This document shows positions 1,770 to 43,231 of a stretch of DNA of 64,000 nucleotides, piece by piece (position 1 is the stretch's first letter; every line of letters begins with the position of its first letter). The stretch comes from Jiella avicenniae (GTDB taxonomy: Bacteria > Pseudomonadota > Alphaproteobacteria > Rhizobiales > Rhizobiaceae). The notes below the pieces were generated by a model, which was not told the DNA's origin, ran no database searches, and worked only from the letters and a program-made list of their open reading frames with translations. The DNA is taken from contig NZ_JAJUWU010000007.1 in the NCBI RefSeq assembly GCF_021390325.1, forward strand, positions 124,001 through 188,000. The letters run 5' to 3'. The translations under genes and the position numbers were made by a program.

Positions 1770-2845
1770 CGCAGGGCCTCCCGGTTCTCTCGGCCGGCCG
1801 ACGGCGATCGGGCCGCGAGAGCCCTGACGGTGAGGGCGAGCATCAGGCCGATGGCGCCAACGATGGCGACGAGACAGGCGAGAGTGCTCGCCGCGTCGCG
1901 GAAGGGCGGGGCGAATTCGAAGATCAGAAACAGCGCGAGGAAGGCGAGCGCGCAGTCGGCGGCGATCTTCGTATAGGCGGCATCGCGGCGGAGCGCCGTG
2001 CGGCTGAGGATCGCGAAGGCGGAAGCGGCGAGGAGAGCGGCGAGGATCGCCACCGCCTTCCAGAGGAATTCGCTGCGCAGCACGTAATAGGCGACCTTTT
2101 CGGGCAGGTTTCCGGACCACTGCACCAGGAACTGCATGAACTGCATGTAGACGAGGCCGAGAACCCCGGCGAGGAGCAGCTTGGCGAGATCGTCGCGCGG
2201 TCCGGGCGAGCCCCCGGCGTCGGTGACGACCAGAAGGCCGAGGGCAAGGGCGATCTGGGTGATCGCGAACATCGCGCCGAAGGTGGTCGACGACCAGTGC
2301 GGTTCCAGCGACATGATCCAGTCGATCGAAGCGAAGTGGATGGTGATCGCATAGAAGGCGATCGACAGGCCGCTGACGAGCCGGTTCTGCGGGCCGATGC
2401 CGGCGGCGAGAATGGCGATCACCGACCAGCCGGCGAGAATGATCACTGTCCGGAGGCCGAAGAGCCAGGGGTTGAGGTAGAGGGCGGCGACGTCGGGCTT
2501 GTCGGCGAGGCCGGAGCCGGACGCCCAGGGCCAGACGAGCGGCTGCACGAGAATGACGACGAGGCCGAGCAGCGCCACGAACGGCACCGTCGACGCCAGG
2601 CCTTCGAACGCCGGCCGGGCGGCCTCGCCCCACCTGCCGCGGGTGAGCCGGTGGGCGTGGACGAGGATGCTCGCGCCCATGCCGGCGGAAATCGCGACGA
2701 CCCAGCCGGCGACGAAGCCGCGCGCGAGCGCGGCGGGTAACACGAGGGCCAGCGCCACGAGGAGGAGCGCGATCAGCCCGAACAACCGCATGGACACGGG
2801 GGTATCGGCGCCGAAATTGCGCCGGATCCAGACGGCCGGGCTCAT
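1766..2845 (-). CDS. actF: Alternative Complex III membrane subunit ActF (NrfD-like, quinol-side)
   Basis: 359 residues with about ten hydrophobic segments, matching the second multi-pass subunit of Alternative Complex III. ActF is homologous to the NrfD/PsrC-like ActC and, with it, forms the membrane half that handles quinol. Visible features include IGPQNRLVSGLSIAFYAITI and SIDWIMSLEPHWSSTTFG, the latter characteristic of ActF (a membrane helix end with SLEP-W). The gene starts inside the stop codon of actE (ATGA) and its own stop overlaps the next gene, so it belongs to a single transcript. It is slightly shorter than the ~400 residues usual for ActF. Confidence 0.88.
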   Translation of the reverse strand: MSPAVWIRRNFGADTPVSMRLFGLIALLLVALALVLPAALARGFVAGWVVAISAGMGASILVHAHRLTRGRWGEAARPAFEGLASTVPFVALLGLVVILVQPLVWPWASGSGLADKPDVAALYLNPWLFGLRTVIILAGWSVIAILAAGIGPQNRLVSGLSIAFYAITIHFASIDWIMSLEPHWSSTTFGAMFAITQIALALGLLVVTDAGGSPGPRDDLAKLLLAGVLGLVYMQFMQFLVQWSGNLPEKVAYYVLRSEFLWKAVAILAALLAASAFAILSRTALRRDAAYTKIAADCALAFLALFLIFEFAPPFRDAASTLACLVAIVGAIGLMLALTVRALAARSPSAGRENREALR

Positions 2846-3642
2846 CGCACGCCCCCTCGACTGCCGGATGGTGCAGGGCCGGCATCGGCTTCGGGACCAG
2901 AGCCGTCCGCAGAAGCAGCCGCTCCTGCGCCGCGACCCGCCGGCGTTACCGCCGCCAGATCGTCTGGCGCGCCGGTCTGGGAGATCTGCAGGGCGCGGAT
3001 ATAGGCGGCGATGGCCCAGCGGTCGCGCGGTTCGACCCGCGCCGCATAGGGATACATCACGCCCCAGCCGTGGGTGATGACGTCGACGAAATGTTGCGGG
3101 TCGGCGGCGAGAAGCCGCGGCTCCATGTAGGAGGGCGGCTGCGGAAAACCGCGCTGGACGACGATGCCGTCGCCATGGCCGGCGAGCCCGTGGCAGGGCG
3201 TGCAGTAGATTGCATACTGCTCCTGTCCGCGGGCGAGCAGGGCTTCGTCGGCGCGCGGGCGTTCGGCGAGGGCAGCGATGCGGGCCGGCTCGCCCCGCGA
3301 CACCGTGCCGGCGGGGATTTCACGCACTGCGGCATCGTCCGGAAAGGCCGTGGCGGTGGAATAGGTCTTCAGCTTCGGCTGGGTCTCCATGCTCTGCTGC
3401 TCGCAGGCGGCGAGGGTCGCGAGGGCAAGGCCGGCGGCAAGAATGGGCAGGGCTCGCGGAGCCGCCGCTGGTTCTGCCGGACACGGTGCACCCCCCTCTG
3501 CCTGCCGGCATCTCCCCCTCAAGGGGGGAGATCGATAGGTCGGAGACGTCGCCGCCGCCTGATCTCCCCCCTTGAGGGGGAGATGCCCGGCAGGGCAGAG
3601 GGGGGTGTGGCGCACGCAGGCGGTGAATTTGGGGATTCTCAT
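2842..3642 (-). CDS. actE: Alternative Complex III monoheme cytochrome c subunit ActE, with a repeat-derived insert in its leader
   Basis: 266 residues from the ATG that overlaps the actD stop (ATGA). It is a lipoprotein-type cytochrome c: a hydrophobic stretch ALPILAAGLALATLAAC ends in a lipobox Cys at about residue 79, and one heme motif CTPCH follows (YAIYCTPCHGLAGHG), with a downstream methionine (GVMYPYA) as a possible axial ligand. ActE passes electrons towards the oxidase. The odd feature is that about 40 residues between the start and the signal peptide are translated from a palindromic repeat (see 3485-3610), which keeps the frame open. The leader is therefore abnormally long; translation may instead start at an internal TTG in the repeat, or the extension may be tolerated. 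The C-terminus is Gly/Ala/Ser-rich. Confidence 0.88.
   Translation of the reverse strand: MRIPKFTACVRHTPLCPAGHLPLKGGDQAAATSPTYRSPPLRGRCRQAEGGAPCPAEPAAAPRALPILAAGLALATLAACEQQSMETQPKLKTYSTATAFPDDAAVREIPAGTVSRGEPARIAALAERPRADEALLARGQEQYAIYCTPCHGLAGHGDGIVVQRGFPQPPSYMEPRLLAADPQHFVDVITHGWGVMYPYAARVEPRDRWAIAAYIRALQISQTGAPDDLAAVTPAGRGAGAAASADGSGPEADAGPAPSGSRGGVR
3485..3610. repeat. Rhizobial-type palindromic intergenic mosaic element inside actE
   Basis: Two ~45-base arms in inverted orientation (about 3485-3532 and 3561-3610) surround a short centre. Each arm contains the smaller palindrome ATCTCCCCCTCAAGGGGGGA plus a CTGCC-GGCA block and a run of six C. The arms differ by only a few bases and single-base indels. 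Elements with CTCCCCCTCAAGGGGG cores are frequent between genes in rhizobial genomes (RIME-like). Here it lies within the reading frame of actE and contributes no stop codon in that frame. Confidence 0.85.
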
Positions 3643-4190
3643 GCCACCCGCTCCCGCACCGACAGGGCGCCATGGTGGCGGAGGAGATCGCTCAAGGCGC
3701 GATCGACGACGGGGTCCGACGTGTGGGTGGGATCGAGCTCGACCTCCAGCATGAAGCGCTCGTCGGTGGCGCGCTCGATGCCCTCCCAGTCGAAGACCGG
3801 ATTGTAGAGCCTGCCGAGGCGGCCGGTGACGACGAGGGTGACGAAGCCGCCGATCGCCGCCGACAGGACGGTGATCTCGAAGGTCGTCAGCATGAAGGTC
3901 GGCCAGGCATTGTAGGGCCGGCCGCCGGAGTTGAACGGATAGGCCGCGACCGAGGACCAGTACTGCAGGAAGAACATCGCGGCCGCCCCGACGGCTGCCG
4001 CGGCGACCATGACGGTGCGCACCGGCGAAGGCCGCGCGCCCTGCGCGGCGGCGATCTCCTCGATGCCGGGGATGGAATAGGGCGTGTATGTCTCGAAGCG
4101 CCGGCCGTTCTGCGCCTTCGTCATCGCCTTGACGGCGTCGGTCAGCGCGTCGGCGGTGGAGAACTCGGCGAGCAGCATCCGCGGTCTCAT
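3639..4190 (-). CDS. actD: Alternative Complex III subunit ActD (DUF3341)
   Basis: 183 residues. The N-terminal ~55 residues form a soluble domain (LLAEFSTADALTDAVKAMTK and the typical TYTPYSIPGIEEI), followed by two membrane segments (about residues 58-76 and 102-125) with a loop carrying YPFNSGGRPYNAWPTFM, then a cytoplasmic tail that includes RFMLEVE. This matches the DUF3341 family, ActD, a two-helix structural subunit of Alternative Complex III. It starts inside the stop of actC and overlaps actE the same way, which keeps subunit synthesis coupled. Confidence 0.9.
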   Translation of the reverse strand: MRPRMLLAEFSTADALTDAVKAMTKAQNGRRFETYTPYSIPGIEEIAAAQGARPSPVRTVMVAAAAVGAAAMFFLQYWSSVAAYPFNSGGRPYNAWPTFMLTTFEITVLSAAIGGFVTLVVTGRLGRLYNPVFDWEGIERATDERFMLEVELDPTHTSDPVVDRALSDLLRHHGALSVRERVA

Positions 4191-43110: not shown

Positions 43111-43160
43111 TCTTCTGGCCGTGGCCGATTGAAGCGCCGAATATCGGCCGCCGGACAACG

Positions 43161-43197
43161 ACGAACCCCGCCGGCATGGACTACCGGCGGGGTTCGT
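43161..43197. terminator. Hairpin between convergent nnr and molybdenum hydroxylase genes
   Basis: ACGAACCCCGCCGG and CCGGCGGGGTTCGT form a perfect 14-pair stem with a 9-base loop. Only short T clusters follow on either strand, but the stem strength and convergent position favour a two-way terminator. Confidence 0.75.
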
Positions 43198-43231
43198 CGT
43201 TCTGCGGTGATCCGCGGTGCTTGGGGAAAGC

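Follow-up and report, generated by a model that had tools for sequence, protein, structure and literature searches.

A palindromic repeat has been inserted in frame into the leader of actE, the gene for subunit E of alternative complex III (ACIII), in the Jiella genome analyzed here (G000); the frame is open and free of indels in two species, the start codon coupled to actD is conserved, and further copies of the repeat lie inside other genes. Comparison of the sequences makes it probable that a RIME-like palindrome (element A) entered the signal peptide of ActE, at its n-region, in an ancestor of G000 and a second Jiella genome (G003), and that it is translated and then discarded with the signal peptide. 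The actE case is part of a wider process in which the same repeat and several palindrome types occur in frame in conserved Jiella enzymes. Jiella, with G000 and G003, belongs to the Aurantimonadaceae (Hyphomicrobiales); among the other genomes of the genus, G001 is J. pelagia, G005 is Jiella sp. LLJ827 and G006 is J. pacifica. The window is the whole 64-kb stretch of G000 DNA that was analyzed, and the features of the locus are listed in Table 1.

Table 1. Positions, in the 64-kb window, of the actD-actE features and of element A.
Feature	Position	Strand	Basis
actE (alternative complex III subunit E, monoheme cytochrome c lipoprotein)	2842..3642	-	ORF, PF13442/PF00034, solved-structure matches
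actD	3639..4190	-	PF11821, E 5.8e-42
actE start ATG, CGGGAG upstream	3640..3642	-	4-nt overlap with actD stop (ATGA)
Signal-peptide h-region and lipobox LAAC (Cys = residue 80)	3403..3453	-	lipobox by eye; predicted helix 64-83
RIME-like double palindrome (element A), ~40 codons of actE leader	3489..3607		inverted arms; G003 copy at the corresponding position, 95% identical
Arm 1, core CTCCCCCTCAAGGGGGGAG at 3512-3530	3489..3533		inverted-repeat and core pattern
Arm 2, core CTCCCCCCTTGAGGGGGAG at 3564-3582	3561..3607		inverted-repeat and core pattern
In-frame TTG (codon 41) inside the repeat, disfavored alternative start	3520..3522	-	position computed from codon number

The first-pass annotation had taken the protein for the ActE subunit of a respiratory complex, and this identification holds: in addition to the PF13442/PF00034 matches, sequence and fold alike give subunit E chains of ACIII (8k9e, 6f0k, 6lod, and 6btm) as the four best solved matches, and the adjacent actD matches PF11821. 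The likeness to subunit E resides in the C-terminal part of the 266-aa frame, which runs from the ATG at 3642 to the stop at 2842 and is open throughout, as had been claimed for its passage through the element. The start codon likewise overlaps actD as described, the ATG lying within ATGA at the junction GGGAGCGGGTGGCATGAG. AlphaFold predicts residues 1-60 to be disordered (10-residue means of 45-55 pLDDT), followed by a helix at 64-83, a heme domain (residues 111-220) mostly above 90 pLDDT, and a low-confidence C-terminal tail; this predicted model is compatible with a leader that would be discarded, and is no proof of it.

Element A is 119 nt long and lies between the actE start and the lipobox cysteine. 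The two inverted arms of ~45 bases noted at first reading measure ~45 nt each and include two 100% complementary pairs, an inner one of 27 nt (3507-3533/3561-3587) and an outer one of 14 nt (3489-3502/3594-3607); the ~40 residues said to be added ahead of the lipobox correspond to codons ~12-52, with the cysteine at residue 80. The window holds two instances of the core pattern CTCCCCC-N4-10-GGGGGAG, against none in 100 shuffles, which excludes chance as the origin of element A. Inverted repeats with arms of at least 18 nt number two in the window, element A and one other, and five order-1 Markov controls contain none. The other, at 43157-43201, has 20-nt arms and a 5-nt loop and lies outside called genes. 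An Rfam search returned 15 matches up to E = 1, none of them at the gathering score; the microRNA names among these matches signify a long hairpin and nothing more.

The leader was compared across 80 ActE loci; the criterion was a start codon lying 12-28 residues ahead of the lipobox Cys, and 76 loci have one (the exceptions are L111, which has masked bases, L119, L151, and L154); J. pacifica, J. pelagia, and LLJ827 are three of the 76 and qualify only via a downstream candidate start. The actE start of G000 is 79 residues before the Cys, and leaders are short in most orthologs, so that the alignment of related actE genes proposed in the first-pass annotation does find the extra residues missing there. 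That annotation had named, as evidence against an insertion, relatives with the same residues and no nucleotide repeat elsewhere in the genome; what we found is the opposite, since most orthologs are without the extra residues, the repeat is multi-copy, and 8 of 51 clusters of copies lie in other genes. The overlap between actD and actE is exactly 4 nt in 66 of the 76 orthologs, and the junction CGGGAGCGGGTSGCATGA is common to G000, G003, J. pelagia, J. pacifica, and Aurantimonas sp. VKM B-3413 (G035), the last of which has a leader of 25 residues from this same junction. The 4-nt overlaps and the short Aurantimonas leader together indicate that the ATGA start is old and that the element was added to the n-region; on these comparisons ATGA is most likely the ancestral actE start. 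LLJ827, whose leader contains no inverted repeat, has an actD-overlapping ATG (17-nt overlap) 42 residues before the Cys, and because this element-free leader is also longish, leader length appears loose in Jiella anyway. The first-pass annotation had offered either a tolerated long n-region or a start at a TTG within the repeat. The TTG is indeed present, and is disfavored because it lies inside the hairpin and no ribosome-binding sequence was seen before it by eye; the long n-region is favored by the ATGA and CGGGAG shared with the short-leader Aurantimonas gene. REP-encoded N-terminal segments may be annotation errors (PMC3733652), and because of this warning about N-terminal cases the actE start was tested from several sides.

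The repeat is multi-copy: G000 contains 83 exact core matches and no match to a reversed-pattern control, and blastn with element A gave 142 listed matches in that genome (40 of 133 candidates scored). Within a sample of 61 genomes of the family, G000 included, the core pattern is found in 34, with 1 to 299 matches each; the highest count, 299, belongs to G082. On plasmids, element A matches 1181 places in 185 records, chiefly from Rhizobium (71) and Sinorhizobium (69). Sixty of these records were sampled and 52 were annotated, and for 51 of these no listed gene covers the best place, a count that takes one best place per record from related records with an incomplete gene table. One possible in-gene rhizobial copy (1/52) is an arm of the RIME-like type under an annotated cadA on the Neorhizobium galegae plasmid CP090555.1 (1991727-1991772). 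The statement of the first-pass annotation that such elements normally sit between genes therefore stands for rhizobial plasmids and holds only in part for Jiella, with 8 of 51 clusters inside genes.

These 51 clusters are a subset of the copies in G000, derived from the 40 blastn candidates that were scored, out of 133, and the first 100 of 166 core places, and were classified with a codon-usage gene caller scripted for this analysis, in-gene meaning that the sequence on either side of the cluster scored positive for coding. Contig C44 contributed two further clusters, which were dropped as duplicates of C49; L170 has no strict core, and L169 holds two clusters. Elements on C44 and C49 lie at equal offsets (difference 58,490), and because these offsets recur C44 may duplicate part of C49, through assembly redundancy or real duplication. 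In addition to the actE copy, 42 clusters were intergenic by the caller and eight were inside conserved genes, which is what the suggested search for other in-gene copies yielded: IleRS, GlyRS-beta, 2-oxoacid dehydrogenase E2 (L180), an ABC ATPase-permease (L182), a DppC/DppD-like junction (L186), BchB, ATP-dependent DNA ligase (L190), and CobN. The element at L186:1974-4169 joins a DppC-like permease to a DppD-like ATPase in one frame, although the two may be adjacent genes; the difference from the G003 ortholog, 51 nt, is divisible by three. In G003, 2 of 21 clusters are inside genes by the caller, from 22 of 28 loci used (the remaining six hold only the second arm of an element already included), with no core in one of the 22. 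L275 (G003:C42 near 8057) is an in-frame element in a putative helicase, which we take, from its motifs, to be of the UvrD type.

Alignment with solved homologs places extra segments in CobN (754|834 against 744|747), in BchB (149|254 against 149|152), twice in IleRS (519|552 against 414|418 and 329|391 against 301|308), and in GlyRS-beta (617|699 against 513|559), while the DNA ligase alignment begins after the insert and is silent on it. Structure prediction for BchB was unusable (mean pLDDT 35, 10 sequences). Comparison of four genes across ten Jiella genomes revealed that species differ in insert presence. The BchB insert is present in G000, G004, G005, G007, and G009 and absent from G001, G002, G006, and G008, and G003 has a 25-residue segment that is perhaps its remnant. 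The GlyS insert has two arms in G000, G004, and G007, and one arm or core in G003, G008, and G009; it is absent from G002, G005, and G006, and the G001 sequence breaks off there. In IleRS (G000 L162:1423-4587 and orthologs L226, L227, L229, and L232), two loops carry palindromic inserts that differ by species and belong to three types; these loops could possibly serve as a map of permissive sites in one essential enzyme.

Five in-frame palindrome types were found in Jiella, either within coding sequence or in the leader of actE: that of element A (CTCCCCC), that of J. pelagia and J. pacifica, GTCATCCCGG in CobN of G005, and CCTCCCCCTTGTGGGGAGG and CCTTCGAGG in IleRS. Alignments within one type beat all 200 shuffles, and all 49 pairs between types were matched by at least 2 of 200. 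The CTCCCCC type has a weak likeness to the CCTCCCCC type, which may hint at a distant link, not a firm one. The actE leaders of J. pelagia and J. pacifica, 414 nt each and both open, carry their own palindrome with arms of 33-34 nt, and align best with each other with small compensating gaps. A third palindrome is present in the actE leader of a Croceibacterium MAG (L154; Sphingomonadales), in which the start is 50 residues before the Cys and there is no other start. We lean somewhat towards the view that at least five palindrome types keep inserting at the same permissive enzyme sites, and that the ActE leader, which would be cut off, is a recurrent landing site, used by three palindromes in two orders (Hyphomicrobiales and Sphingomonadales).

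ActE was found in five of ten genomes of the genus, with three different leader states among them, and the other five gave no ActE match. An unrooted tree of four proteins joins G003 with G008 (support 100) and this pair with G001+G006 (99), and not with G000, G001 missing 1021 of 3463 columns because its genes are broken. Since G000 and G003 are not sisters in this tree, their shared insertion needs a further event: perhaps element A was ancestral and was later replaced in the lineage of G001 and G006, or perhaps the locus was exchanged. In G001 (J. pelagia CP114029.1), CobN, IleRS, and GlyS are split or frame-broken, and these three broken genes, together with a completeness of 84%, suggest indel errors in the assembly.

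The insertion probably came about and is tolerated as follows. A mobile RIME-like palindrome would have entered the n-region in frame in the ancestor of G000 and G003; translation would begin at the old actD-coupled ATG and the ribosome would read through the hairpin, giving a precursor with a 79-residue leader of which ~40 residues are repeat-encoded; and lipoprotein processing at the lipobox, to which the motif points, would discard the whole leader. The insertion would be tolerated because the leader is cut off and the mature cytochrome is unchanged, and would be neutral. That it instead inactivates ActE, leaving a decaying copy, is very improbable: the insertion does precede the secretion signal and extends the leader to several times the length usual in orthologs, but the mature domain, heme motif, and lipobox Cys are retained and alignable with 44 orthologs, and the element is also open in G003. 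A pseudogene was accordingly rejected. It is quite unlikely, if less so than decay, that the repeat is untranslated between actD and actE, with a start further downstream (CTG codon 65, ATT codon 67, or TTG codon 41; in G003 TTG codon 62) and a frame that is open by chance. The leader scores as non-coding by codon usage, with the gene caller placing the start downstream of the lipobox; 60% of frames are open through the 23 two-arm clusters outside called genes (actE's counted); G003, J. pelagia, and J. pacifica have possible downstream starts (TTG, GTG, and ATG, respectively) 18-22 residues before the Cys, that of G003 lying between element and Cys; and the published caution about N-terminal segments applies. 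However, no ATG, GTG, or TTG follows element A before the Cys in G000, the coupled ATGA and its upstream CGGGAG are conserved, and the leader is without indels while intergenic sites drift. Across 15 orthologous sites compared between G000 and G003 (actE, eight intergenic, and six in-gene), ActE has 0 gaps in 252 nt at 86% identity, whereas the eight intergenic sites (225-517 nt with flanks) have 5-22 gaps each and a net length that is a multiple of three in four of eight. The six in-gene sites have 2-12 gaps each and a net length that is a multiple of three in all six, with single gaps that are often not multiples of three in these alignments.

The same comparison bears on whether selection maintains the hairpin for an effect on translation or mRNA stability, by which it would set the output of ActE (and of genes downstream) relative to ActD, with coding incidental; this we hold to be unlikely. 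As RNA the region folds into a very stable hairpin early in actE (z = -11.6, with 0 of 200 shuffles as stable), and element A has changed less between G000 and G003 (8/123 nt) than the rest of the leader (29/114) or the mature part (126/528). The differences within the element fall 3, 3, and 2 by codon position, such that its surplus conservation is not a protein effect alone, and in G003 both arms have changed together, from CTCAAG/CTTGAG to CACAAG/CTTGTG. Against a selected hairpin at this locus, matching of the arms is seen genome-wide and is therefore not specific to actE: of 27 two-arm clusters, 15 have one and the same core variant in both arms, where shuffling gives a mean of 7.4 and reaches 15 in 1 of 5000 shuffles. 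The three leader states among the five genomes with ActE also speak against it. Homogenization of arms or selection on the hairpin would explain both the surplus conservation and the paired arms. Taken together, a translated and discarded insertion in the n-region is the reading that we consider probable.

Palindromes of comparable behavior are reportedly those of Rickettsia, the Rickettsia palindromic elements (RPE) of Ogata in 2000 and 2002. Element A resembles RPE in being a multi-copy palindrome of similar size (105-146 bp for RPE), in occurring both between genes and, in frame, within conserved ones, and in forming a long stem-loop (PMC2229807 and PMC3733652). Element A is multi-copy, the conserved genes that contain it in frame are unrelated to one another, other copies are intergenic, and insert-free homologs exist; the likeness to in-gene Rickettsia elements that the first-pass annotation had drawn thus gained support from the insert-free orthologs, the multi-copy repeat, and the 8 of 51 in-gene clusters. 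It is unlike RPE in its host, a member of the Hyphomicrobiales and not Rickettsia, in having one copy in a leader ahead of a lipobox, and in its apparently different sequence, so that the likeness is one of kind and not of sequence family. The Rhizobium-specific intergenic mosaic element (RIME) was reportedly described by Osteras in 1995 as intergenic. The behavior of element A on rhizobial plasmids is that of RIME. Its homology with the repeats of the 185 plasmid records, mainly from Rhizobium and Sinorhizobium, and not the published RIME1 sequence, is the basis for calling it RIME-like; unlike RIME, it departs from the intergenic position here in actE and in 8 of 51 clusters. The name RIME occurs in PMC2573895.

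Intragenic REPs have been found in frame in tRNA synthetases, DNA ligase, and repair genes, also in free-living species, and different REPs occupy about the same recB site in two Xanthomonas (PMC3733652); the in-frame palindromes of Jiella tRNA synthetases and DNA ligase are alike in this. Unlike REPs mobilized by RAYT, element A has no GTAG/CGTC at its ends, which read CACCCCCC...GGGGGGTG. The Y1 transposase family (PF01797) has no match in G000 (97.65% complete) and is matched in 5 of 14 control genomes; in view of the missing match, RAYT mobilization was rejected. By eye, no convincing target-site duplication was seen at actE, GlyS, or IleRS, where the insert-free loops are too diverged. 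The coding palindromes of Wolbachia and Methanocaldococcus (referred to in PMC2229807) and those within coding sequence of Nematomorpha mitochondria (PMC6649704) are, by description, alike in coding position and belong to other hosts. In-frame palindromes are already known from Rickettsia (PMC2229807) and from other bacteria, free-living ones too (PMC3733652). The open-licence literature that was searched contained no prior report of in-frame RIME-like elements in Hyphomicrobiales and, as far as our searches go, the RIME-like family and its host, the polymorphic enzyme sites, and the recurrent use of the ActE leader are new.

On these results, elements of a class known from rhizobia as intergenic are able to enter a number of conserved proteins, with a cleaved leader as a simple reason for tolerance in the case of ActE. 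For annotators there is also a warning, since repeat-like segments in linkers or at the N terminus may in some cases be real. Because a given site can be filled, shortened, or empty among the ten Jiella genomes, the neutrality of the insertions, their rate of turnover, and the loops that accept them are directly testable.
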